From Amphiura filiformis (Eukaryota > Echinodermata > Ophiuroidea > Amphilepidida > Amphiuridae), in NCBI RefSeq assembly GCF_039555335.1, contig NC_092629.1, positions 949,001 through 1,013,000 on the forward strand: 64,000 nucleotides of DNA, in the 5' to 3' direction. Of this stretch, positions 11,323-64,000 are shown piece by piece. The notes beneath the pieces are model-generated. The model had not been told where the DNA came from. It did not search any database and worked only from the letters and a program-made list of their open reading frames with translations. The position numbers and the translations under genes were made by a program. The number at the start of each line of letters is the position of its first letter. Position 1 is the stretch's first letter.

Positions 11323-11434
11323 ATGGGGCATATGTGGTCCACATATGTCACTAATCCTGACACATCACCAGATATATATAATATGCCAACCTTTGATCCG
11401 CTTTATGGATTTCCAGAGGGAAGGAAAGAAAGAG
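11323..11434 (+). CDS. NDUFB7: NDUFB7 exon 1 (coding part)
   Basis: It encodes residues 1-37 and the first base of codon 38. The start is the ATG at 11323 because it gives the family N-terminus MGH..., with Gly2 and Ser6 in register for myristoylation; the second in-frame ATG (11332) would lose this. The conserved block MPTFDPLYGFPEGRKER follows. The donor is G|GTACAG after 11434, weak at +4 to +6 but in the right phase: G joins TG of exon 2 to give Val38. An upstream ATG at 11249 lies in another frame and overlaps the start, so it could act as a uORF. Confidence 0.95.
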
Positions 11435-14400
11435 GTACAGTCAGCATGAAAAACCAATATTTTTAAGCTTACCAATTTCGAACGTTTGAGGACTTGTTCT
11501 CAAGTTGTAGGTACTCCCGTAGGGTGGCTCCGGGGTTTTAGTTTGGCAAGTTTGCATTAGTATATCTAGTAAAATACTCACTTTAGAAACCTGTGTTACT
11601 GATGTATGCCATCTGTGATTGCTCAACTTATTCTACGCATCAGCTTTTGTCCAAAGAAATATTAAAAAAAGACAATTTTTGAGTGATTTTTATGTCTTTA
11701 CTTTATGAGCAGCGAAAAGACCACTCCACGACTAAATTATCAAATTCGTGGACATCATGGAACATACTCTTTGCGTGGCTGTGCGTAGTAAGCAGTTGTA
11801 CGCAGTGTTCGATTTTCATCTATTTTTTTGTGTAGCAAAAATTGCTACTCACTTTCAGATTTGAGTAGCAATTCCAAATTTTTGAGTAGCAGTTTGTTTT
11901 CACCATATTTTATCGATTTTTTTGTATACTTGTCTTCTCACATGCCGGTACTATGCTTAAAAAATCGACAAAAATCAAACACTGCATGGGTACCATCTTT
12001 AGACCCCTATTGGAAAAGAGAAAGGCCTCACCTTCTGGGAAAATCCACCTTATTCTGCATTGCCCTTCCGATCCATGCATCTGATAGATGATCATGTTTT
12101 GAAATTGCAATAATAATTACCACATACCCCACCCATGCATGGGAAACTGTAACATTAGTTAAGCTTAATATTACTGGGTCATTTTGTCATTTGGAAGGAA
12201 ATTTACTAGATGATGTGAAACTTTACCATATGCACGGGTTAACATAGTAAAGAGGCAACGTCCCGGGGCAACGTTATGCAATTGCAGTGTTGCAGAACGA
12301 ATGTGGTTCAAAATTCGGCACTTAAACTTCCTAAGCTGATTATCATGTGCCCTTTCTAGACGCAAATTTTTCCTTCAGTATTCAGAAAAATCCTACATTT
12401 TTGAGTAGAGGAAACTCACTTATTTACTAGCTGAAGCATTAAAATAATGTGAGGAACCTATGAAATCCTAAAAATCTTGTGTAATTTTGGAAGATTGTCA
12501 CCAAGGACACACAATATTTCCGTCTCACCACTGAACTATACACCCATATAAACATTGCTACTTCTATGACGTCATAAACAGTGTTCGATTTTCATCTATT
12601 TTTTTGTGTAGCAAAAATTGCTACTCACTTTCAGATTTGAGTAGCAATTCCAAAATTTTGAGTAGCAGTTTGTTTTCACCATATTTTATCGATTTTTTGT
12701 ATTTTCTTATCTTCTCACAGATTACTCAATCCCAGTACTCAATGCTTAAAAAATGTTATGCAACTGCAGTGTTGCAGACCGAATGTGGTTCAAAGGTCGC
12801 ACCTAAACTTCCTAAGCTGATTATCGTGTGCCCTTTCTAAACGCAAATTTTCCTTCAGTAATCAAGAGAAGTCCTACATTTTTGAGTAGAGGAAACTCAC
12901 TAATTTATTTTCTGAAGCATTAAAATAATGTGAGGAATCTATGAAATCCTAAAAATCTTGTATAATTTTGGAAGATTGTCACCAAGGACACACGATATTT
13001 CCATCTCACCACTGAACTATACACCATATAAACAGTGCTACTTCTATGACGTCATAAAATTAATATGCACGTTTTTAGTTATCTGGTAATACATGGAAGT
13101 TTGTAACACAACACGTCATGGAAATAAATTTGCATACAAGGGAGGATACTGTATTTAGTTTAATGGCGTAAACATCACGATTTAGGGACTTTTGAGTCAT
13201 ATTGTTGTGGATTATTTTCTTGGAAATAGAATTTATGGAAACATTTTTGACTTCGACAAATGGCAACTTGCAAATGATGGTATCAGCATGGTTCACGATC
13301 GCAAGTAGGCATTTTTCCCCAATTTTTTGGGATCGCATTTTTTGCTACTGGTCTGTGTAGTTGAGTAGCAGTTTGTAAAAAATGACTCGCATTTTGCGAT
13401 GCGAATCCAGGTAAATCGAACACTGGTCATAAATGAATATGCATGTTTTTTTGTTATCTGGTAATACATGGAAGTGTATAACACAACACGTCATGAAAAA
13501 AAAATTTGCATACAAGGGAGGATACTGTATTTAGTTTAATGGCGTAAACAGCACGATTTGGGGGCTTTTGGGTCATATTTTTGTGGATGATTTTCTTGGA
13601 AATGAAATTTATGGAAACATTTTTGACTTCGACAAATGTTAACTTGCAAATAATGGTATATCAGCGTGGTTCACGGTCGCAAGTAGGCATTTCCCCGATT
13701 TTTTGCTACTGGTCTGTGTAGTTGAGTAGCAGTTTGTAAAAATGACTCGCATTTTGCGATGCGAATCCAGGTAAATCGAACACTGGTTGTACGCAGATAG
13801 TCTCGCTAATATGGACGCGTAGAGTCGCGTTGTACGCGCGTGTAGTTAGCATGATTAGTCGCGGAGTAATAAGCGTAGTTGAATGTTCCACGATGTCCAC
13901 AAATTTAATATTTTTTCTATAGTGAGTCTATAGGTATGCCAGGCAAACCTTAGTTTACACATTTGCTAGTCAACCAAATTCGCCGACAATGTCAATGCAT
14001 ATTTAGATAGAAATTTTAACAACTGGCCAAAGAAGGAAACCTACATAAATATGTTTTCAATACTTCACTTGACCCAAATATATGATTTTTTATGGTGATA
14101 ATACAATCGCACATGGAGTTTTAGAGGATTTTGATAGCAGTTCCATTAAAAAAGCTGCTATCATAATGAGACTAAGATCTAGAAATACCCCCGAAATGCC
14201 GTTTTGGGGAATTTTGCTAGCTGAATCTTTTTGATGAAAGTCAATCTTTGACAAGATGTAACTTTGCTACGGAAAGTGCTATGAAAAAAGGTTCTCAGTG
14301 TTGGCTTTGTTTACTCAAGGGCTTTAATTTGACATAAAATGATGCAGTTTGATGGCAAATTTGAATTCACCTAGCATACCTATAGTCTATGTACATGTGA

Positions 14401-17400
14401 ATATGGTGATGAATGCACGCTAAATCACGGTGACACATACACATAGCTCCTTGGAACTCACGATTGGAGCCGTGAGTTCCAATTATTGGAACTAGCCAAA
14501 CGCAAACAATTGAAACATTCAGTTCAGTTGATTCATGCATGCATGCATATATTCAGTGCACGAACATGACGATTGACGAATGTACTACTGATCATGTGTA
14601 CATGTTTCTGTTTCTGTTACGTAACTTCCCTTAGGAAACTCAGTATGACAGACAAAGCTGCACCTTCATTAAGCTGGTTAGACCAGTTACATTTTAAAGA
14701 TGAGAAACGTTTGTTGTGTTACTTTAGTTTAGAAGTCTAGTTTCGAATTAGCTCACCGATAGCTTTACAATTGAAGAATTAAACTAGAGTAATTTATCGA
14801 AAACGGATCATCGATCATCATCAACATCAATCATGCATCATACGCATCGCTTGAGTGAATAACTTTCTTCACAATTTCTTTAAGCCTAAGTAGTCCTGCC
14901 AGCAAGACTTCAGTCTTTATCATAAACATAATAACATCTACGGACCTGAAGTCTTGTAGTGGTACATAGGGATGCACTGTACGTTTAAAAATTCAAGCAT
15001 CAAGAAATATACCTTATATTTGACATCACAAGTAGAATGCTGCTCAATATGATAAATCCAAATCATGAAAATTAAGACAATTTGCAGAGCAATAGTTTGA
15101 CCACTTTTGCACTAAGTAAATTACTCCCATGCAGATTGCAGGTTTTGCCAACTCAAGGAATTTGAACCCACCCAAAAGATGCTTACTAATAGTAATTGAC
15201 CAATGTAGATCAATTACCGGGTACCTCAACTTTGTGAGTATAGACCACTTGACATGTGACGTCATTGCCCGGCAGTATGCGCACGCATAATGGCACTTTA
15301 TATTGTTCTTTGCCCTGCAGTGTGCGTACGCATCGTAGTTTGCTCAGGGCATGTGCATTTTAAATCTCCCACCACATTTCATATAGTACAAGAAAGCCAT
15401 TGAACAGTGAAGCGGTTCGTTCGAGCATATCAACAGACCAATCCTTCGCCTTTGTTGATAAACAATGATAACAAGTGGTCTATAGACTACATGTAGTACA
15501 GTGGGATTAAAATCATCCACACACGCCCAAACCCTGGTACAATGGGATTAAAATCATCAGTGCATGCCCAAACTGTCCTTGAGAGAGTTCCTCAGCTACA
15601 TCCTTAGAGCCCAAAATGAGCCCACATATTGTGATGTTTCTTATTTGTGGAACAGATGTCAATAGAGGGAACTGTAACTCGGTATGCCGAGTTACAGTTA
15701 CTGGAACTATAAGCCTAAGGCCAAGTAAAAGAAATGTATATCATCCGGGCTTTTTCAAAAATCAGCGAGGTAGGCCTTTATTATTTGTTATTATGTTATT
15801 TTTTTCATCATTCATTTTTGAGACTGTGTATAATTGCAAATTTTTGCAAAGTGTTTGTCAACAGTCGCCACATCACAAAAACGGGGAGGTCCCTAATATT
15901 TTTGTTATTTCCCCAAAGCCCTACCCCTACCCTAGCTAGATTTTAAAAAGGAGTATTTCGTGATCCTAGCATCCTCTATTTATGTCATTTTTCATTAGAT
16001 ATCCACGAAAAAACCTATTCCCAAAATTTGAGTTGATTCCGATTTTGCGTTCGCGAGTTATGCATGATTATAAATGTGTATTACACTGCTCCGTAGACAA
16101 TGCGTTGTAATTTCGTTTGGGTGCACCAGAACGAAATTCAAATTTCACAATATCTTTGCTAAATGAATTAATCTGCAAGAAATATTTTGTACATAAACAT
16201 TATGTAGCCAGAGGTTTCCAGTGATACAAAACAAAATGTATAAAAATCTCAACTTTTTTTGAGAAAAGTGGGTGGATGAGGCTGTGGATCACGAATTAAG
16301 AGAGTGTTTGCAATGTGTTTATGATAATCAAGAACTTTTAACATGTCTTTATTTTATTTACAACAATTTTTCAATTTCAAAGTTCAAGAAAAATAACAAA
16401 AATATTTGAAAATCTCCAAAAATCGGCGTGGGTGGGGGCAATATACATGTTATTAATTTAACTTGGCCTAAATGCTTATTAATTTCTTGAGCGAAGCCTC
16501 GTTTTGGTGGTAGGTGGTTGGGGACAATCACACCAAATGATTCGAAAAAAAAAAAAAAAAATTAAAGGTTTCTCACCATTGTCAAAATGTCATTGAAATA
16601 CTGTGTGAGCCCGGACGCGATATCCCACCAAAGATTACCCACATTGCACTCTGTTCTGAATTAATGAACTCATTTTTTGAAGTTCGGAAGTAAACGCATC
16701 CAATCACGATGCTGGGGCTATTGCATCCCGGGGATGGATAGATTGCATCAAAACTGTTGTGTTGGGTAAACGCAATTTACTCGCACTTGCACTTTAACTC
16801 AATATTAGACTGTTGAAAATAGGTACCGGTAACCTTTATTGTAAAAGCAGGGCTATCAACTCTCACGCATTCAGCATGAGTCTCACGCATTTGGACACTT
16901 TCTCTCGACAAGGTAGTGAAATATCATGCAGGTCTGCCAACTCTCATGCATTTGAATGCAATTTAGTGTCTAATGTGCTCTCAGGTCCCACAAAAATACT
17001 GTGCAAACGTTGCTATCCGATCCCTTAGCTTGCACATTTAAGAATTTATGGACATTTGTGTGCCATGTCATAAAATAAGGAAAAAATGGGCTATTCCATT
17101 TAAAATCCACACTATCCCTGTGGAACATTTTGGAAACACCTTCTATAGGGGAGCAAGTTTTTCAAATGTAATTGGTCTAAGTTAATCATTTTGAGAACCT
17201 GTAGTCCCCCTGTATTATGTTTTTACCTATATCTTCAGTATTTCAAACGGAAGTTGGGTATGTCCATAAATAAGGGGGCCAATGGGTTTTTCTCTGACTT
17301 TGCCCATGCCAAATTTCTGATTAATGCAACAGAACTATTCCAGCATATCTAGTGTTTTATTATACCTTACCAATATGGCTACTATATTACATTATATGAG

Positions 17401-20400
17401 TTAAATTTCCAGGAGTTTTACTTTTTGAGTTGTAAAAACAGATATATTTTGCCTTTGTGTCCCGCATAATTTTGGTGTCCCGCTTGGAGAGTTATGTTGG
17501 TCAATTTTGATTGCTCCTAATTTGCCTAAGGTTGGTCATTTTTTAATGAATGACGTCTCCTCAGATGACTTACCACAAGGTTAACCTAAAGACATGATAT
17601 CATGTCTGCGGAACTCAGAAACTTTTGCTGATGGGCATTTGAAATTTTGGTGTCCCGCCATGCTGACAGTGTTATGTTGGTCATTTTCAGTGTCAACAAC
17701 ATAAATTGGTTGAAACTGGGACTTCTGATATTGATTTTCAGAAGTTTCCCGCACTACCCTTTCAGAATTTCTTTAAATTTCACTTAAATGTTATACATTT
17801 GTACCTATAGCCATTTAAAAATTAAAGTGAAATTTAAAAAAATTCTGAGAGGGTAGTGCAGGAGCCATCTGTTGAATTGACATGGACTGACCCAAAGTTG
17901 AATTTTGGTAGTTTTTTTGCAGTGTTGAAAAAATAAAAATGCAATTTTTAAAATTATGAAGATCTCTTACAAACTTGTTAATTTTCTCATTAAAGGATAC
18001 TGGATCACATTCTAACTAATATGAATTTTAAGTCATTTCAAGATCTTTTTTATTTCTGAAAATGAAGTAAAAATATACCTTTGGTTGTCCTAGTTATGTT
18101 GGTCATATTTCATGTTGGATCTGAATTGGGACCTGTGAGTTTGCTATGTATGTCCAGCAAATTTAAAACCATTTACTTTTTTGCATATTTTAGACAATGC
18201 TTTATCTAAAAACACCCTTCAAATTAGTTTTATGCCATTTTGAGTCATTGTCACACTTTTGGACCCCTTATTTATGGACATACCCAGTTACCCAATTGTC
18301 TATTTTATTTGAAACTTATACTCCCTCTGTGGAAGACTTTAGCTAAATCCTCCACATGGGTAATGTGGATTATAAATGGAAGAGCCCAATAAAGGTTGTC
18401 TTGAGGACAAACTAGGCATAGATTCTGCTTATCCTTAAAATATTTCAGTTGTGTGATATTTTTAGGTGCAAAAAAACAAAAAACAAAATTGACGATGATC
18501 AAGAAACTTACTAAATTATTCAATCATGCAGTGATTGTTGCATCTCCAGGAAAATGATGCGGGTGGGGACGAAAACCAGAAAATAAATTTGATACCATGA
18601 GCTTAGCCCAATGTACATAGTGAGTAATCTACTGGTTGTTTTCTTATTTGCAGTGATGGTTGCTACGCAGCAGGAGATGAATGACGCCAGACTACCGCTG
18701 GACAAACGCGACTTCTGCGCTCATTTCCTCATAGACTTCTACAAATGTAGACAAGCAGAATTCCCCAATCTGTCGGCATGTATGGGCAAGAAACATGACT
18801 ATGATCAGTGTGAATATCAAGAGTAAGTAGGACTAAGTAGGACTAGAAACATGATTATGATCAGTGTGAATATCAAGAGTAAGTAGGACTAGAAAAATGA
18901 CTATGATCAGTGTGAATATCAAGACTAAGTAGGGCAAGAAACATGACTATGATCAGTGTGAATATCAAGAGTAAGTAGGACTAGAAACATGACTATGATC
19001 AGTGTGAATATCAAGAGTAAGTAGGGCAAGAAACATGACTATGATCAGTGTGAATATCAAGAGTAAGTAGGACTAAAAACATGACTATGATCAGTGTGAA
19101 TATCAAGAGTAAGTAGGACTAAGTAGGACTAGAAACATGATTATGATCAGTGTGAATATCAAGAGTATGTAGGACTAGAAACATGACTGATCAGTGTGAA
19201 TATCAAGAGTAAGTAGGACTAGAAACATGACTATGATCAGTGTGAATATCAAGAGTAAGTAGGACTAGAAACATGACTATGATCAGTGTGAATAATAAGA
19301 GTAAGTAGGGGTGCTCCTCCCTAATTGCCCCCAAAATGCATTGCCCCCAGTGCTGTGAGCAAAATTGGTGGGTGCCTAAATTTATAAAGTTAGGCGCCAT
19401 TGGCTCCTTGATCAGTTTTTGCACTGTACAGCACTGATTGCCATTAAAATGCATGGCCCCCTTCAATTAAGTCAACATTTTGAACTTTGTTGTTTTGCCG
19501 CTTCAGGGCTGAACAAAGCAAAGAAACAGTTCCCTTGTAACATGAAACTCAACCAAGCTGCAAGTGTTCTGACTGAAATGCCATTTGGGTGGAATTCCTG
19601 ATAAAGAATTGAGTTATTCCAGTTTAAATCCATACACCCTATGGAAGACATGACCTTAATCTTCTCTGCAGGGAGTGTGAATTATAAATGGGGCAACCTG
19701 AATGGGGGACTCCATTTGAAATCTGCACTCCCTGCAAGGGAGATTAAGGTCATGATTTCCATATGGGACAGCCCATTCTTTGTTCAGATTCAGTATGGGC
19801 CAATCCAGGATGAAAACACTAGACCAGTGGTGGCCAACCTGCTGCCTGCAGGCCACATGCAGCCCATAGTGATCTAGCAAATAGAGGCCGTCAGTGTGAC
19901 GTCACAGTGGCCATCTTGTGGGTGCTAGTAAACTCTGTTCAAAGTTTCAGGGCATGAACAACAGGTGAATTAGGTACTAGCAGTCAGTCAACCTATAGAG
20001 GTCAATCATATCAAGCAAGTGAACAAGGAGATTGTGTGCACGAATCGTACATACAAACACTAAATGAGTCATGCTTGAAAAACGCTGACGGCCTCTACAC
20101 TGTATAAGGGGATGAAGGCCTTGCTAATAAGAATGGTGTTCATTTCTAAAAGTTTATCAATTCCAGAAGATAAGTGTTGGTCACTAACTCTGAGGGTGGC
20201 GGCCCATAGGAAACATTAGCACCCTCCTAAGAACTTCCCAGATGTCCACTATCCCTTCATCAGAACCAAAATCATAGAAAATCCCACTTTTTGGGGCAAA
20301 AAATTACTTTGTTTCTGTTGTTGTATTTTCAGTTACGTAATGAGGATGAAGGAATACGAACGAGAGAAGCGACTACTGCAGCGATCCAAGAGAAAGAGGC

Positions 20401-20432
20401 TAAAGGCAGCACGAGAAGAGCTATATGAATAA
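11323..20432 (+). CDS. NDUFB7: NDUFB7, NADH:ubiquinone oxidoreductase subunit B7 (three exons, complete)
   Basis: The spliced CDS is 11323-11434, 18654-18822, 20333-20432: 381 nt, 126 residues plus stop, close to the human protein (about 137). NDUFB7 (B18) is an accessory subunit of the membrane arm of mitochondrial complex I, on the intermembrane-space side; it carries a CHCH fold with twin CX9C motifs that are oxidised on import (family knowledge). Seen here: Cys59-x9-Cys69 and Cys80-x9-Cys90, both exact; family signatures MPTFDPLYGFPEGRKER (residues 21-37), MVATQQEM (39-46) and YVMRMKEYEREKRLLQR (95-111); a basic, probably helical tail ending in ELYE. The N-terminus MGHMWS fits the MGxxxS/T myristoylation pattern; the mammalian subunit is known to be N-myristoylated. 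All junctions are GT-AG and both introns split a codon consistently. It is convergent with the SARA-type gene. No alternative identity is plausible. Confidence 0.97.
11803..13785. mobile_element. hAT-type element (outer copy), interrupted by another copy of itself
   Basis: Ends CAGTGTTCGATTTTCATC and AGGTAAATCGAACACTG; flanked by the exact 8-bp duplication GTTGTACG (11795-11802 and 13786-13793). Inside NDUFB7 intron 1. Removing the inner element (12579-13425) and one copy of its target duplication leaves about 1.13 kb. No intact transposase frame. Repeated ATTGCTACTC/GAGTAGCA words mark both ends. Confidence 0.92.
12579..13425. mobile_element. hAT-type element (inner copy) nested in 11803-13785
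   Basis: Same ends as the outer copy, 847 bp, flanked by the exact 8-bp duplication GTCATAAA (12571-12578 and 13426-13433). The insertion point falls in a TGACGTCATAAA that the element itself carries internally (near 13048-13058), so a younger copy hit an older one at a site both share. Confidence 0.92.
13794..15940. other. NDUFB7 intron 1, unassigned part
   Basis: No coding signal. It holds a hairpin with GGAACTCACGATTGGAGCC at about 14452-14482 and a short perfect palindrome GTAACTCGGTATGCCGAGTTAC at about 15673-15694. Otherwise it is unique-looking AT-rich intron. Confidence 0.5.
15949..16297. repeat. Family C dispersed repeat, copy 1
   Basis: Runs from GGAGTATTTCGTGATCCTAG to GAGGCTGTGGATCACGAA and contains a palindromic core based on ACGAAATT. 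Other copies: 22869-23170 (+), 47600-47932 (-), 50672-50972 (-), 61899-62208 (-). Ends are short inverted GTGATCC-like words, so it may be a non-autonomous DNA element of about 330 bp. Confidence 0.75.
17098..18387. mobile_element. Family A element split by another inverted-repeat element
   Basis: The left half starts GGGCTATTCCATTTAAAATC and the right half ends GGATTATAAATGGAAGAGCCC, the standard family A ends. Between them lies 17255-18286, described separately. In NDUFB7 intron 1. Confidence 0.75.
17255..18286. mobile_element. Inverted-repeat element of about 1.03 kb, nested in family A
   Basis: Ends TGGGTATGTCCATAAATAAG and CTTATTTATGGACATACCCA. Internal words GTTATGTTGGTCA repeat four times. 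A second internal inverted pair (TTTAAATTTCACTTAAATG / ATTAAAGTGAAATTTAAA) sits near 17,765-17,850. No coding frame. Confidence 0.75.
18654..18822 (+). CDS. NDUFB7: NDUFB7 exon 2 (CHCH domain)
   Basis: The acceptor is TTCTTATTTGCAG ending at 18653 and the donor is GA|GTAAGT after 18822. The exon encodes residues 38-93 and the first two bases of codon 94, and holds all four CX9C cysteines. The last 39 coding bases plus the first 7 intron bases are the ancestral unit of the tandem array that follows directly. If the donor is skipped, the frame reads EYQE then TAA at 18824, so splicing exactly here is required for a full-length protein. Confidence 0.97.
18784..19310 (+). repeat. Tandem array of the NDUFB7 exon 2/intron 2 junction, 46-bp unit, 11 copies
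   Basis: The unit is the last 39 bases of exon 2 (from GGGCAAGAAACATGACTATG) plus GTAAGTA of the intron. Unit 1 is the real exon end; ten further units follow in intron 2. Two later units (around 18933 and 19023) keep the exon-like GGGCAAG start, while most others read GGACTAG. Nine units including the real one keep GAGTAAGT, the unit ending near 19168 has GAGTATGT, and the one near 18925 has lost the donor (GACTAAGT). Two junctions contain an extra AAGTAGGACT. Units are nearly identical, so expansion looks recent. Confidence 0.95.
19611..19782. mobile_element. Family A element, in NDUFB7 intron 2
   Basis: Starts GTTATTCCAGTTTAAATCCA, contains the inverted pair CATGACCTTAATCTTC / AGATTAAGGTCATG and AGGGAGTGTGAATT, and ends GGACAGCCCA. 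Confidence 0.75.
19884..20098. mobile_element. Inverted-repeat element (TAGAGGCCGTCAG ends), NDUFB7 intron 2
   Basis: TAGAGGCCGTCAG at the left is mirrored exactly by CTGACGGCCTCTA at the right; 215 bp, no coding capacity. Confidence 0.8.
20333..20432 (+). CDS. NDUFB7: NDUFB7 exon 3 (C-terminal tail and stop)
   Basis: The acceptor is TTGTATTTTCAG ending at 20332. The first T completes GAT (Asp94) with GA of exon 2, giving the family sequence DYVMRMKEYEREK. It encodes a very basic helix (KRLLQRSKRKRLKAAREE) and stops at TAA 20430-20432. A partial repeat of the end, CTAAAGGCAGCACGA with a following CTCTATGAATAAT, appears about 70 bases downstream (20470-20502) in the 3' UTR. I saw no consensus AATAAA within about 350 bases of the stop, so the poly(A) site is unplaced. 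Confidence 0.96.
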
Positions 20433-20912
20433 TGCATCAGATTACATACAGACTCAAATAGAAATTGTCTAAAGGCAGCACGATGAGAGCTCTATGAATA
20501 ATTCATCAGATATAGAGAGACTTACAGACTTATAGAAATTGTGTGAACCACTCCTGCTGTCACAATTCTTTCACATAATTTTGCTTATAATGTCCTAATA
20601 AGGAAGTTGGACTCCTGATTGGCCAATTGAGTCAGGTTACGAATCAAAAACAAGCATTTGCTGTACAAGCAATGCCTTATGTAGGTAATAAGTCCTGTTC
20701 CTTCCAACTGACGTTATCATGGTATGATCATTTGCAAACTTATGCGGCAGTTTTGTGACAGGATATTTAAGCAAGAATGCCTAAAGTGCAAAAAAAAAAG
20801 ACAACAATTTGCACTTTAGTTCTTCTTGCAACCTCAAAACACAAACTTGTGTTAAGATGACAAAAAAACAACCAAACCCTGTTCTATGGGCCTACCAACT
20901 CACCCAGAAAAA
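20433..20912. other. NDUFB7 3' UTR and downstream
   Basis: Contains the echo of the coding end (about 20470-20502) and a hairpin GCCTAAAGTGCAAA / TTTGCACTTTAG around an A run at 20779-20819. No poly(A) signal of consensus form is seen. No other gene. Confidence 0.5.
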
Positions 20913-20913
20913 T

Positions 20914-21191
20914 GGGCTATTCCATTTAAAATCCACACTACCCCTGTAGAAGATTTTGGAAATATCTTCCACAGAGGGAGTATGAATTTCAAATGGAATT
21001 CACACATTAGCAGCTCCATTTGAAACTTGCCTTCCCTCTGTGGAAGATTCAGGTTGAATCTTTCTCAAGAGGGTATGAAATTCAATTGGAGCTGCCTAAT
21101 GTGCTTATTCCATTTGAAATTCATACTGCCTCTATAGAAGATATTTCCTAAATATTTCATGGGGGAGTGTGGATTTGAAATGGAATAGCCC
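20914..21191. mobile_element. Family A element, full length
   Basis: Starts GGGCTATTCCATTTAAAATC and ends GATTTGAAATGGAATAGCCC, perfectly inverted over the first 12 bases. Internal inverted sub-repeats with TTCCACAGAGGGAG and CTCCCTCTGTGGAAG give a four-arm structure. Confidence 0.85.
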
Positions 21192-37884: not shown

Positions 37885-40800
37885 CTGGAAATGTAAACAA
37901 AAATTGATTCAAGTCATTAAGTGTTTCAAAACATATTATAGGTATATACTGTGTCATGTCTCAAGTTGAGAGTGCCCTCAGTGTGAACAAAATTGATTCA
38001 AGTCATTAAGTGTTTCAAAACATATTATAGGTATATACTGTGTCATGTCTCAAGTTGAGAGTGCCCTCAGTGTGAACAAAATTGATTCAAGTCATTAAGT
38101 GTTTCAAAACATATTATAGGTATATACTGTGTCATGTCTCAAGTTGAGAGTGCCCTCAGTGTGAACAAAATTGATTCAAGTCATTAAGTGTTTCAAAACA
38201 TATTATAGGTATATACTACTGTGTCATGTCTCAAGTTGAGAGTGCCCTCAGTGTGAACAAAATTGATTCAAGTCATTAAGTGTTTCAAAACATATTATAG
38301 GTATATACTGTGTCATGTCTCAAGTTGAGAGTGCCCTCAGTGTGAACAAAATTGATTCAAGTCATTAAGTGTTTCAAAACATATTATAGGTATATACTGT
38401 GTCATGTCTCAAGTTGAGAGTGCCCTCAGTGTGAACAAAATTGATTCAAGTCAGCAAGTATTTCAAAACATATTATAGGTATATACTAAAAGAAAAAAAA
38501 AAGGAAGGTTTTATTTCAAACTCTAATGGTGACCCGCAGGTCAAATTGCTAGAATTGAACATTAAACACACCTAAACAGACACAATGCAATTTTGCAGGC
38601 AGCAGCTTAATCAGCGCCAATATTGCAACATTGAAACAAACAACTATACAAACATCTAATCCAACCCAACCCCATCCCCCAGTAGGCAATGAGGATAAAG
38701 TGCCTTGCCCAAGGACACAACACGTTGGCACGAAAGGGGCTCGAACTCGCAACCTATGGATTATGAGTCGGGCGCCTTATCCACTCGACCACACATGCTC
38801 ATGTCTCAAGTTGAGAGTGCCCTCAGTGTGAACAAAATTGATTCAAGTCAGCAAGTATTTCAAAACATATTATAGGTACCGTATTCGTTCCAATAAGCGC
38901 CCACCTACGGTATTTTCAATTCGTTTAGGGAAATCATGAATTCCAACATTTTTGCAAATATCTCCAAAACCTTTCATGATACAATCTCAAGTGAGTTTGT
39001 GCTTATGTAGGGATATGTTGGCCATGTTATGAAGGTAATAAAACCGTTGCCATAATACGTAAATGGGCGCTTATTGGAATGAATACGGTATATACTGTGT
39101 CATGTCTCAAGTTGAGAGTGCCCTCAGTGTGAACAAAATTGATTCAAGTCAGCAAGTGTTTCAAAACATATTATAGGTATATACTGTGTCATGTCTCAAG
39201 TTGAGAGTGCCCTCAGTGTGAACAAAATTGATTCAAGTCAGCAAGTGTTTCAAAACATATTATAGGTATATACTGTGTCATGTCTCAAGTTGAGAGTGCC
39301 CTCAGTGTGAACAAAATTGATTCAAGTCAGCAAGTGTTTCAAAACATATTATAGGTATATACTGTGTCATGTCTCAAGTTGAGAGTGCCCTCAGTGTGAA
39401 CAAAATTGATTCAAGTCAGCAAGTGTTTCAAAACATATTATAGGTATATACTGTGTCATGTCTCAAGTTGAGAGTGCCCTCAGTGTGTTTACACAGTTGC
39501 ATTGACAGTGTGTGGACAAACCACCCTTCTATGCATGTGTATACGCCACGCGAGATTAGGTTAGCCCTTACGATTTGAAACTGTCACTGCGAAATATGCA
39601 CAATGTGCTATTCTCAACTTGAGACGAGACACAGTATATATTCTCTAATTTCTAAAAATATAAAAGCCCATGGATGTAGTTATGTCGGTCAGCGCCGACT
39701 GGTACTCGTCGCCTTACTGGTGCGTTTTTTGCTGTTAAAAAATGCGTAGAAAATCTGACCCTTAGGTATGTTATACCTTAGTTCCTACCTTTTCAGTATC
39801 AATAGTGACTCTCAACCCAAGTTTTGCTAATCCCATTTCTCTCAGCTCATCAAGGTGCTCAGATAATGCAACGCTGAATGCCACCGACAACGACTCCGCT
39901 AGTTTGCTTAGATCTACCGGCTCATGGTGGCGTCCTATAGGCTCGTTGTTCTCCAGGAAGAAGACCTCCGTCCAGCGTAGGGGCGTGATTTTCCCGGAAG
40001 TCGGTGCTGTTGTGTATTCTGACACTTTCGATGCCTTCCATTGACCTACCATCAATTGGACTTGTGACCCTTTAGAAAAAGATATTTCAAATGTTATTAG
40101 TTTTAAAAGGATATACATTGGAAACCAACCCTAAGAGTTTTTCATACAGAGAATTTAACCATATTCTACCTGCGAACATTTGATACAAAACTGGATGGAT
40201 TGAGCATGATGCATGAATTTATTGCTCGAGCGAGCTATAGGTTTCAAATATCATGCCGTGGTATTTGTGAACTCTTGATAGACTGATATATCCATGTATC
40301 ATGAGAAAAATCTATCCAATTTTATCATTATTGTGTTTCCAGAATAAATAGTCTTCAGAAATATGTAAATGGTGCTACTCTCCAAGTAGTGAATTAATTG
40401 GACGGCTAGGTTATGTAAAAAGGTACGGTATAGGATGCAAGATTCTGAAAACATAATAATGAAGTTAATCAATTATTGCATGTAGGCTGCCAAGTGGATT
40501 AATGATTTTGCTACCACCCACCCAGCCAGGGAACAGCCAACTAACCTTTCATCTGCACCATAATATAAGACCCTCACAACACATGTTGTTGTGGGGCCCA
40601 AATTTTAAATCGAAATCAATCCACTGCAATAAAAAAATGGCTGTTTTTAGTTTTATACAGCTAAACTATTTACTGTAAAATTATGGTGTTGAAGAGCTTG
40701 ACTTTTATTTCAATGTTAACCATGTATAATGTTTAGACAATAAAGGTATTGTTTTTAGCCGCTGTCGTGCATCCATCATCCATATAAAACGGGCGACATC

Positions 40801-43800
40801 ATTATTTTAAGTCAAAAATAATGATGTCACGTGTTATATGAGACGATAGATGCACAACAGCAGCTAAAAACAATACCTTCCTTCATTCTCATTCTTATCG
40901 ATCAGTCCCATTGTTGCTATGCACCTCGGATTGGTTCAAATAGCACGTAGAATTATCGCGTCGACACGCACATGCTAAAGTGTGTGATGTCATATCACAC
41001 AAGTAATAAGAACCAATAAGATTGCAGGAACTTTCTTTAAGAATGTCATGTAAGTGCATGAAAGTTGTATGTGCAATAGCTGTCTTTTGCCACGTGGCCC
41101 TTAAATATGTTTAAAACAAAAGTACTAAGAGTTACATAAGAGGGTTTGCTTTAAACATGTTCAGGGGCCAATGACACATAAAACGATATTGTGGTTTATC
41201 AATGCCTGGCTTTAAATTTGTAGCATCCTTTAAGTGTGAAGTCTGAGGGTAGTAGGACTTCAAATGCTTCCTGGAACAACTTCAATCACCTAATGAACAT
41301 TCACAGAACCCAATGGCCCATGAGCTAAACATTTGTCAGATTTCTGTATTCCTCTGCAAATGCAATTTCTAAATCGAACATAGGGCAGCCATTGCATGCA
41401 CTTCACAATTCAACCCCATGAGAACTACCTGCCAATTGGCCAAAAAAGTTTTCATTATTAATTGGCCCAATCAGCAACATTGTTAGAATAATTTCACCAC
41501 ACAAAAAAATTGGGGTGAATTATTTGCAAATCTCCATTCTGATTGGTGATTAAAGTGAGAACATCATGTAATTGACCAATCAGAGGCAATGTTAGATCGG
41601 CAGGTAGTGCTCAGGGGGTTAATAAGTTCCAACTTACCCCATGTTAAACTTCTGATCGTCTTCAACCCACTTAACACAGACAGTCTCTTCAACTGTCTCA
41701 ACAGTCACACTCTTGCACGGTATGACAAAGTTCTGCATTTCCCTGATAGCCTGTCGCAGAGATGTCATCATTTCTGGTCTTATCTGCACCATGAGGCCGT
41801 CTTCCACGATACTGGACTTAGCCGTCAACCCAGAGCTTGATTTCAAGGCACCGTTGAACACTACAAAACTGGCTCCCGTTACTGGATGCAGGAAAAGACA
41901 AAATCATCACTTGCTTGATTGATTGTTTCATTGACCGACTGATTAAAGCAATATTGTGAGACTTTGGACAAATTTTAAGATTTGGATGTTACAAAATGAT
42001 ACAATGATATCAGTTTTCACAATCATTTTGAGCCAAACAAATGAGGTAAAATAAAAAACAAAAACAAAAAAAAACTAAGCAGTGTGGAGACTGATATTGG
42101 TCTCTATCATTTTTGGTCAAGAAAACTTTCATTACATCGCCTGGAACAAGAATGTGTGTATATCAAACAATCTGATGGTGGTTCCTAGCCTTTTGTAATA
42201 GAAAAAAAAATTAACATATTTGCAAAATGACCTCAAGTGACCCCTTTTTTTACAATTTACATCACACATAACAATGTACCCAAGGGTGGTGGGTCCAAAG
42301 CATGTGAGAGAAACCAACAAAAGAGGCCAAGCATTAACATTTTTCTGCACATAGAGCCACACACACACACCACACAGCCCCACATACATCGGAGACCTTT
42401 TTTTATAATCTTCTTTCCAAACTAGGGACAATTAACCAATCAGGGGCACTGTAAGAAAGGCAGAAGTGCCTGTTGGAATAGAAGCCCCAATTTGATTGGT
42501 TACGTAGATGATTATATCATGTAATGAACCAATCAGGGGCACTGTACGAAAGTAGGCCTCATGAGGTAAAAAACACAATGTCTCACCTCTTCTGGGTTTA
42601 TTCTGTATATTAATCGCCTGCGTCTGATAACTACCGTCGCGTTCTGAATGCACACCAGATGTGAGTCAGCCTCCGAGCTGAAATTGGCGGCGAGCGCCAT
42701 CACATGCTCGTTGGAATTATTGAGTACTTTCATGACGTCGTCGTAGCGGTTCTTGGGGAAGTTGATGTTGGTTTCTCTGTCTTTCATTAGGATGGTGACA
42801 CCGGGTATGACCGGCAAGAGGTACTGGTAATTCTTGAAATCCTGTGATGAGGCAGGAAATAAAAGTGCCAATAAATGGGCTATTCCCCTTAAAATCCACA
42901 CATCCCGTATGGAAGACATGATCTTAATCTCCCACATAGGGAGTGTGAATTTCAAATGGAGTCACCCAATCAGTGTCGTCTGCTCCAAAATGGGCTATTC
43001 CAGTTGAAATCCATACACCCCGTATGAAAGACATGATCTTAATCTCCTACATAGGGAGTGTGAATTTCAAATGGAGTCACCCATTCAGTGTTGTCTGCTC
43101 TAAAAAATGGGCTTTTCCCTTTGAAATCCATACTCCCCTTACGGAAGACATGACCTTAATCTCCTACACAGGGAGTGTGAATGTCAGACAGGGCTACCTG
43201 AATGGCGACTCCATTTGCAATCTACACCCCATGTGGGAGATTAAGGTAATGTTTTGCATACAGAGTATATGCAGAGATGCCAACATTAACATCCAGAAAA
43301 TAGGGAGGATTTAAACAACAACAAAAAGGGAAGTTTTCAAAATTACATGCAACTAAAGGCACAAAAATTGGCAGAAATAGGGAGGTTGCCAAATTTGGGT
43401 GTCAAAATGGCTAAAATGTTTACAAAATAGGGAACCTCCCTCTAAACATGATTGCAGTGTGAGGCATGCACTTATCAGACCCTGCAATGACTCCATTGAT
43501 GCAGCCAGGCTAACCACAGAACGTCCGCTGAACAAAGTCAAGTTTCACTAGGACTATTTTTTTTTAAATACATTGCTTCTTTTATTCTCTTGATTATATT
43601 CCACAATCTAGTGGATTGCCTGTGATTTCATTGGATGAGAGCTTCACTTCAGGAAGAACAAGTGAAATTGGGGGAGGGAGACAAAAATACGCACATAATT
43701 TGGAATTTCTGTACTTGTTTTTGTTCTGACAGGCCCATGCTACCACCACTGATTCCTCATCTCCTTTGTTTTACTTACTGCAAGTAGGTTCATTATGGTG

Positions 43801-49800: not shown

Positions 49801-52800
49801 TTGGGTACAACTTTTCATCAGGCAAACACTCTAAGACGATGTAGCTTACATCTTGGACAGCCCCTCCCCACCCTTTCTCCAGCTACCCTCCCCTCCCCTC
49901 CCCCACCTCACCTCCCCTGGGTACCTACCTTTTGAAGTTTCTTCATAAACAGTCTGTAAATGTGTGAATATATCTTTGGGTAACAACTTTTCATCAGGCA
50001 AACACTCTTACGATGAAGAAGCTTTCATCCTGGACAACTTCCCCACCCTCTCCCTGGCTACCCTCTCTCCCTCCCTCGGTACCTACCTTTTGAAGCTTCT
50101 TCATAAACAGTCTGTAGATGTGTGAATATATCTTTGGGTACCATCTTCTCATCAGGCAAACACTCTAAGACGATGACGATCTCGTCCTGACCGGCTGTCG
50201 TCATTCCTTTGGTGGCAAAACACCAGCAGGTTCTATTGACGCAGCAATTTACTGGAAGAAATGCGATAATAATAATCATGGTATTAAACTATGGTCCCAC
50301 ATTTGGCAAAAACAATTTTGATTTAGAGAAAGAGAAATATTGTTTTCAGTATTTGCAAAAAAAAGAAAAAAAAAAAAAAAAGTCAACAATGGTTGATAAC
50401 AGAGGCTGGAGCCTGGAACCCTTTTAAAACAAGTTGAAATAATTAAAAAAAGTGCACACTAAATTTGAAAAGTGCACACCATATTTTTACCGGACTGTGT
50501 GCATTTCAACGGTAATGGCATTGGTAAATTGGCAAAAATTATGTTGTAAACTCGAAAGTGAACCGGTTTTTAAGCTTACCTAACAATTTTCCAGGAATTA
50601 TCTTTGTAAAAATGACCTCTATCAAACGCCCCTTTTAAAAAAAATTTCACGTCCAGGGGTATTGATTAGACGATACAAAAGGGCATTTTGTGATCCAGAC
50701 TCACCCCCCAAAAAAAGTTGAAACTGGAAACCCCTGGCTATATAATAATTGTGTACAAAAAATTATTGTAGATTAATTAGTTTAGCAAAAATACCGTCAA
50801 ATTTGAATTACGTTCTGGTACACAGAACAAATTACAACAGTGGTCTATTGAGCAGTGTAATACACAAACGTAAAGTCGATAATCACAGACATTTTGGGAA
50901 TAAGCTTTTTCGTGGATATCTACTGAAAAATGTTACAAAAAGAGGATGTTAGGATCACAAAATACTCCTTTAAGTGTCCAAAAAGTCACTGATCCCAAAC
51001 TTGTGTTTCCAGTCTCCTGATATATATATGTAGAATAATTTGTGGTGGGATCACAGGATATAGTTTGATCAGCTTGTAATCGGCTGGCCTTATAACATCA
51101 TGGATTAGTAGTGGTAAAAGCCTAACAATTCCCACTGATTACGAGTTGATCAAACTATAAACAAATTATCATGTCTAGCATAAATAGGTAAACTTTCATT
51201 GTAGTACTTACAGTTAACTATTTTGACCATAACTAGAAGATTCTTGTTGAGAACAAAAACTACAGGATTGGAGTTGTCTTCACCTGGAGTGAAAACAGTA
51301 ATAATAATAATTAAAACAAGAAGAAGAAGAAGAAGAAGAAGAAGAAGAAGAAGAAGAAGAAGAAGAAGAAGAAGAAGAAGAAGAAGAAGAAGAAGAAGAA
51401 GAAGAAGAAGAAGAAGAAGAAGAAGAAGAAGAAGAAGAAGAAGAAGAAGAAGAAGAAGAAGAAGAAGAAGAAGAAGAAGAAGAAGAAGAAGAAGAATTAC
51501 ATGTAAATTACCCCCATAAAAGCAACAAACAAAACCAGGGAACTCATAAAAACTGAATATTAATCAGGCTTATTTCCAATCGAGGTCCTTTCACCAAATT
51601 ATTAAAAATGGAGGCAGATAAAAAATTGGACAAGGGGAAATAAACAAGAATTAGATAAGTGAGCAAAGGGAAGACAGTAAAGAAACAACCTCATTGCATT
51701 GGAAATAGCCATTGAGAGATGTTTACGTATTGCACTTAAACTTGATGGGGGTGTACTCAGTACAAATGACCATACGGGAAGTGCTTCTAACATGAGTAGC
51801 ATTTGCTGTCTTTTGGAAATCAATAACCCCATTTTTAGGCCAATTTTGGTATATGGACAGGTCCTTTTTTCAAAATTTTCTCAACTTTTTTGGAAAAATT
51901 TGCCTCACTATAGCCAAAAATTTTGGAAATCTCCCAAAAATTCAGGTAAAAATTGTAAAAACTAAGACAATATTATAATATAAAATTGGATCGATTGAGC
52001 CCATATTTATATAGTCGAGTCCAATATTTCAAAACTCGAGAGCAAATAGCGAGACCAATAAATATTGGGTGACTGTAAAGCATCAAATTTTATCATTATT
52101 ATGTGTTGGATCCAATATTTTCACACACTTGAATTCATCAAAACATAATAATGTGTTAAATTTGGCTGAAAATTTTGACTTTTGGTATGAAAAATTGGTA
52201 TATTGATGGATCCACTTTCAATTGTCATACAATAGCAAAAGTTATTTGTAAATAGATGTAATAACTAGAATTTCGCGGTTCTCGACTTGTGCGGTTCTCG
52301 ACGCAAAGCGTCGGCCGCGATGCCTCCACCTTGACGCGTATCATTTGAACCGGTGCCCATACAACAGTTTAGTAACTTGACCTTAGATGACCCCTGGGTG
52401 ACCTTGGATGACCTTCCAAAAATAGGACTCTAAATGTTGACTGCACCCACCAAGTTTCATGCCCATACAACAGTTTTTAGTAACTTGACCTCAGATGACC
52501 CCGGATGACCCCAAAATGACCTTCCAAAATTTTGGCTCTAAATGTTGACTGTACCCACCAAGTTTCATGCCCATACGACAATTTTTAGTAATTTGACCTC
52601 AGATGACCCCTGGATGACCTCGGGTGACCTTGACCCACTGACCAATACAAACTTGTTCTTTCTAGGGTCAAGATGCACCCACCCACCAAGTTTGAGGAAC
52701 ATGCGACCCCTAGTCTCCGAGAAAATGGTATTTTGCTTGTTACGCATACATTATGCAAATTAGGTACTTATTTACCATATTTTGCGCTGAAAATTTAATC

Positions 52801-63676: not shown

Positions 63677-64000
63677 CTGAAATTATAAATGAAATTTAAA
63701 AATATTGTTATGGGTAATATTTTTTTTCTGTTTTGTCGCAAAGCCACACATCCTCATCCAATCCAATCTAAAAATGGAGGACTAAAAATAAAACTTTTGA
63801 CATCATCTAACAGCATTTCTGATTGTTGGAAACTTGAAATGCTCATTTCCATTGCAAATTATGACTAGGCTTTAAACTATTTATGGTCAATACCCTCCTT
63901 GATTGGTTTAAATTGGGCACAATATTCATTTGGCCAATCGGCATGTAGTTCTCATGGGGTTTTACCTATAAATAACATAAAGCAGCTATGGTGTATATAG

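Follow-up and report, generated by a model that had tools for sequence, protein, structure and literature searches.

A minisatellite spanning the boundary of exon 2 and intron 2 in NDUFB7 of Amphiura filiformis

How does a gene find the end of its exon when that end, together with its 5′ splice site, is repeated again and again in the adjoining intron? The question is raised by a locus of Amphiura filiformis that we analysed within a 64,000-nt stretch of genomic DNA (hereafter the window, to which all coordinates refer). Here, eleven similar units extend from the end of exon 2 into intron 2 of a gene spanning 11323-20432 on the + strand. The gene is NDUFB7, which encodes the B18 subunit of complex I, as both homology and its cysteine pattern demonstrate. 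The product of exons 2 and 3 (88 residues) matches the Pfam family NDUF_B7 (PF05676; E=9.7e-28, 96.1 bits against a cut-off of 26) and NDUFB7 chains of known structure (E≤0.001 for 35 distinct PDB sequences; the best, 3.3e-30). The three-exon product is identical at 126/126 residues to the best of 63 protein hits, P0001, an A. filiformis protein whose annotation reads NADH dehydrogenase [ubiquinone] 1 beta subcomplex subunit 7-like. In an alignment of 10 NDUFB7 proteins chosen out of the 63 hits, the twin CX9C cysteines (C59/C69 and C80/C90) are invariant in 10/10. The gene identity and exon structure (Table 1) given in an initial annotation of this DNA are thereby upheld; among 12 ends tried for exon 1 (11428-11439), 11434 was the only one to yield a 126-aa product that agrees with the annotated protein at every residue. 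Introns 1 and 2 measure 7,219 and 1,510 nt, respectively.

Table 1. Coordinates of NDUFB7 exons and of array features in the window
Feature	Position	Strand	Description
NDUFB7 exon 1, coding part	11323..11434	+	MGHMW...GRKER and first base of V codon; donor AGAG|GTACAG
NDUFB7 exon 2 with donor 1	18654..18822	+	169 nt; phase 2 end GA|T; from translation; acceptor TTATTTGCAG
Junction minisatellite	18784..19310	+	11 head-to-tail units of ~46 bp, two 10-bp inserts, one 2-bp deletion
Unit 1	18784..18829	+	Functional exon end and 5′ splice site AGA|GTAAGTA
Donor 1, GTAAGT	18823..18828	+	
In-frame TAA within donor 1	18824..18826	+	Read in all products not cut at donor 1
10-bp insert AAGTAGGACT	18835..18844	+	After unit 1 and again after unit 7; spacing 56 instead of 46
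Other array donors (start positions)	18879, 18971, 19017, 19063, 19109, 19165 (GTATGT), 19209, 19255, 19301	+	
Unit 3 lost donor, CTAAGT	18925	+	
NDUFB7 exon 3, coding part with stop	20333..20432	+	YVMRMKEYEREKRLL...EELYE, TAA; from translation; acceptor TTGTATTTTCAG

In each unit of the array, with some changes, the final 39 bases of exon 2 are followed by the initial 7 of intron 2; the whole measures 527 bp. TRF called the repeat at 18834-19309 (period 46 bp, 10.2 copies, 89% matches), and in-register alignment placed the eleven unit cores at 18790, 18846, 18892, 18938, 18984, 19030, 19076, 19132, 19178, 19222 and 19268, with successive spacings of 56, 46, 46, 46, 46, 46, 56, 46, 44 and 46; the 2-bp deletion lies in unit 9. 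The donor hexamer is GTAAGT in 9/11 units, GTATGT in unit 8 and CTAAGT in unit 3, leaving a GT donor in 10/11, and the codon context of the last CX9C cysteine (CAGTGTGAATA) is present in 11/11. When the 42-bp unit core was searched for with ≤3 mismatches, it gave 10 matches in the window, all within the array and none elsewhere (unit 9 was missed owing to its deletion), and 0 in 100 dinucleotide shuffles. Intron 2 holds 9 copies of GTAAGT, whereas 500 shuffles averaged 0.65 and never exceeded 4. These comparisons exclude the array as a product of chance. TRF, the alignment and the shuffles thus agree with the eleven tandem units first described, as the counts do with the copied cysteine codon and the ten retained donors. 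The earlier wording needs some amendment. A unit of 39 exonic and 7 intronic bases is correct, but not "exactly" so: it is one of four equivalent phasings, because the unit edge falls in a 3-bp GGG common to exon and intron, and the 10-bp inserts and the 2-bp deletion had gone unmentioned. The label "satellite" is too strong for a minisatellite of 0.5 kb.

The same GGG bears on the origin of the array. It stands in the exon where the unit begins (GTATGGG|CAAG) and recurs in the intron directly after the last unit (GTAAGTAGGG|GTGC), thus marking both ends of the duplicated segment, the match extending to 3 bases and no more. A first tandem duplication at this match is therefore likely, with the caveat that a 3-base identity is frequent by chance. 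Units 4 and 6 repeat the exon's 39 bases unchanged, and the other eight downstream units carry GGACTA in place of GGGCAA, some with additional changes; the mean pairwise difference between units is 5.0%, gaps and 10-bp inserts left out. Units 1-2 and 7-8 agree at 98/100 bases and share the same 10-bp insert (whose phase is ambiguous, as it is a direct repeat of its neighbour) and the same C-to-T change, the identity indicating that an exchange copied a block of about that size. Judged by these patterns, the array was probably born by tandem duplication at the GGG match and then extended by unequal exchange.

What would happen if donor 1 were missed can be computed. Read through after the phase-2 end of exon 2 (GA|T), the GTAAGT donor gives GAG TAA; with a phase-2 intron and this donor, every transcript in which donor 1 is missed therefore reads the TAA at once. 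One and the same 94-residue product, ending CEYQE, accordingly results from intron retention and from each of the nine later donors that are intact. This product retains both CX9C pairs and lacks 12 of the 37 columns that are invariant among the 10 aligned NDUFB7 proteins, a thirteenth (D94) being changed. That later donors retain the in-frame TAA and lose the conserved C-terminus, as initially proposed, is hence borne out by the computed products. Predicted exon 2, 169 nt with donor 1, lengthens to 225-647 nt with the other donors. A premature stop more than 50-55 nt upstream of the last junction marks a transcript for nonsense-mediated decay. The stop stands 52 nt from that junction with the donor of unit 2, a borderline value, and 144-474 nt from it with the donors of units 4-11; by the 50-55-nt rule, transcripts from the later donors should mostly be decay targets.

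At the level of annotation, donor 1 is the site in use. P0001, which requires it, is the single annotated product of A. filiformis in the set of 63 hits. Clustering at 90% identity leaves P0001 in a cluster of 1, with no annotated truncated form beside it. The sites themselves offer little by which to tell donor 1 from its copies. In a simple duplex calculation of pairing with the U1 5′ end over all GT sites of exon 2 and intron 2, nine array donors tie at -8.0 kcal/mol, at ranks 3-11 of 108, and are outscored by two intron sites outside the array, 19368 (-9.5) and 19965 (-8.4). The nine share an identical -3 to +8 context. In 8/9 later intact donors the 9-base core equals that of donor 1, and the 39 exonic bases upstream are nearly alike. 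Masking of the later donors by RNA structure was rejected, as predicted folding leaves donor 1 no more open than the rest (local unpaired probability 0.068, against 0.195 for donor 2, 0.462 for donor 5 and a range of 0.040-0.462 over the 11 units). The idea that the units act as cassette micro-exons was likewise rejected, no AG in the array being preceded by a pyrimidine-rich stretch: by pyrimidine content alone, the measure used here in place of a full acceptor model, the 20 nt preceding the 61 array AGs reach a fraction of 0.5 at most, versus 0.75 at both true acceptors. One intron AG outside the array, at 19506, equals the true acceptors at 75%.

What sets donor 1 apart is its position. In five human minigenes studied by Carranza et al. 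(2022), each carrying a pair of identical CAG/guaagu donors between flanking introns of 365 nt, use of the upstream donor was exclusive (PMC9225289). Among human splicing events with near-equal donors, the same paper finds that exon-defined ones favour the upstream donor, with 60% upstream over all classes; it also describes an unfiltered event set in which ~60% favoured the downstream donor, and minigenes with both donors weakened, in which larger exons were skipped (PMC9225289). The comparison spans a distance, as the minigenes carried two CAG/guaagu donors in human cells and NDUFB7 carries ten with AGA/guaagu. The initial annotation had held that the gene must favour the first donor over its competitors. 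Use of donor 1 agrees with the annotated protein; the need for a special device does not follow, since cross-exon proximity under exon definition sufficed in the human minigenes, and no special mechanism favouring donor 1 seems to be required.

On its sequence, the array can be placed in a known kind, the minisatellites that lie across exon-intron junctions, as in human CBS and IFI6; like these, it is built of tandem units of ~10-100 bp containing an exon end and a donor. Repeats of the CBS 31-bp VNTR are reportedly used as alternative donors, and the IFI6 minisatellite has a frame-keeping unit of 12 bp. The source studies are Lievers et al. (2001) for CBS and, for IFI6, Turri, Cuin and Porter (1995), whose title has the minisatellite supplying multiple splice donor sites. 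The CBS repeat, named c.1444_1467+7(16_21) or "31 bp VNTR" in a passage of PMC2630376, is the closer likeness: by its HGVS name it joins an exon end to the first 7 bases of the intron (24 + 7), and it is tandem, with single-base differences between units. It differs in its unit of 31 bp, its 16-21 copies, its polymorphism, and its gene and phylum. A table in PMC1395315 gives exon 13-intron 13 as its location, with raised homocysteine listed, and a statement in PMC5188458, which calls the repeat non-coding, has more units lowering enzyme activity and raising homocysteine; for CBS a link between copy number and activity is thus reported. IFI6 (G1P3, 6-16) resembles NDUFB7 in having donor-bearing minisatellite units behind an exon, and two of its downstream units are described as serving as donors, giving three mRNAs (PMC4526556). 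The NDUFB7 unit, unlike that of IFI6, is 46 bp and breaks the frame, and the TAA is always met. As IFI6 uses downstream units and a higher number of CBS repeats accompanies lower activity, some leakage to later donors in NDUFB7 is plausible. CBS also provides a case in which splicing strongly prefers one of two copies of a junction, 844ins68, a single 68-bp duplication of the intron 7/exon 8 junction with the distal copy used (PMC2630376); we take it to be an acceptor duplication because of that junction, although the passage says "donor". Intron gain by tandem duplication, which in the yeast genes described is present in several copies, likewise copies splice signals within a gene, but there a new intron arises, whereas the NDUFB7 array sits within an intron that was already there and offers no convincing acceptor. 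The NDUFB7 array is named in no title among those listed from full-text searches of openly licensed literature, a result of little weight for print overall.

Why, then, is the array there? We consider it probable that it is a young, near-neutral minisatellite across the exon 2/intron 2 junction, spliced by way of donor 1, with misread transcripts decayed. The anatomy of the array, the variants common to its units, the reading consequences and the match of the annotated protein to donor 1 are direct observations. From them we infer a mechanism of duplication, donor choice in vivo, decay and neutrality, in the following sequence. A first tandem duplication, joined at GGG, would have placed a copy of the exon end and donor in the intron, and unequal exchange or slippage would have raised the unit number to 11, units 1-2 and 7-8 being copies of one block. 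The spliceosome would treat the array as one donor: exon 2, because it is short and lies between long introns, would be defined as a whole across its own length, and of the competing donors the one closest to the upstream 3′ splice site would win. Most transcripts missing donor 1 would be removed by nonsense-mediated decay, which would hide the array from selection. Such masking of faulty splicing by decay has been proposed for new Drosophila introns, in a passage of PMC2809761. Across the array units, no depletion of changes in the donor hexamers was seen: 2 of ~9 independent substitutions fall there versus 1.2 expected, and one of the two destroys a donor, the substitutions having been counted by eye from the alignment and their number leaving almost no power for a test of constraint.

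The most serious rival, which we nevertheless judge unlikely, is that some transcripts use later donors, read the TAA and are degraded, so that NDUFB7 mRNA falls with copy number, much as more units of the CBS VNTR, which lies at an exon-intron boundary, are said to lower activity (PMC5188458) and as the CBS VNTR is tabulated with raised homocysteine (PMC1395315). The 10/11 intact donors, of which nine agree throughout -3 to +8, and the premature stop reached from all nine later intact donors are consistent with such a brake; cross-exon proximity, which predicts donor 1, speaks against it, as do the destruction of one donor, the alteration of another and the lack of depletion in the hexamers. 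Tuning of NDUFB7 output by non-productive splicing, which had been offered as an alternative to strict donor choice, may be possible. That the minisatellite works in brittle stars as a heritable, fast-mutating rheostat on a complex I subunit, the number of units governing NDUFB7 mRNA output because each one adds a competing donor whose TAA sends the transcript to decay, strikes us as distinctly improbable. Were the brake real, individuals with arrays of different length would differ functionally in a subunit of complex I.

We give still less credence to an assembly artefact, by which expansion or collapse would have falsified the length or the existence of the array. Tandem arrays are prone to error, and if the window stems from the published Nanopore assembly, the figures given in PMC11310086 apply: a diploid base error rate of 0.00068, a structural one of 0.002, and 3.22% heterozygosity with alternative haplotypes afterwards removed. 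Set against this, the shared and private variants of the units fit a biological history, 527 bp is short relative to long reads, and the window, with 37 non-overlapping tandem arrays covering 9.5% of it, makes such arrays ordinary here. Least probable of all is that the extra donors, uncut, bind U1 snRNP beyond the 3′ end of the exon and thereby strengthen the definition of exon 2 or block early polyadenylation: the nine donors tied at -8.0 kcal/mol (ranks 3-11 of 108) would suit this, but donor constraint was not seen in what is a weak test, and to our knowledge introns in general need no such reservoir.

Other repeats and genes were recorded in the window. The 3′ end of NDUFB7 is duplicated too (20385-20442 and 20454-20511; 58 nt, 84% identical, spacing 69): the segment at 20385-20442 covers the coding end, the stop codon and the first part of the 3′ UTR, and the second copy lies beyond the stop codon. 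Together with the exon 2/intron 2 array, NDUFB7 therefore has two tandem duplications across functional borders. An imperfect inverted repeat at 19637-19766 (55-nt arms, 80% complementary, 20 nt apart) looks MITE-like by eye, and similar motifs recur by eye at ~20918-21190. The 37 tandem arrays, merged by hand from 48 TRF rows, amount to 6,088 bases. They include a perfect run of ~60 AAG triplets at 51318-51496 and two arrays ~600 bp apart (37892-38488 and 39087-39487), built of almost the same 89-bp unit, which are probably very recent because neighbouring copies match at 97% and 100%. On the minus strand, 39774-63695 holds pieces of a SARA-like gene, which we take to be ZFYVE9 (SARA_C at 39774-40130 and 42536-42961; SARA at 63345-63695); Pfam searches of 10 of the 21 window ORFs gave SARA-family matches in 3 and none in 7.

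Returning to the near-neutral minisatellite, the array most likely does little. The locus also suggests how such a repeat may be borne in a housekeeping gene: in a phase-2 intron, a read-through GTAAGT is a stop, so that errors end early and the protein does not gain repeats. Should copy number alter output, the human CBS VNTR would have in this array a counterpart among invertebrates. Along the array, the strength of the sites and their nearby exonic context hardly vary, and only order and distance differ among the donors. The NDUFB7 array is thus a natural counterpart of the two-donor minigene experiment, and a natural test, in an echinoderm and readable from ordinary RNA-seq, of donor choice among near-equal sites.
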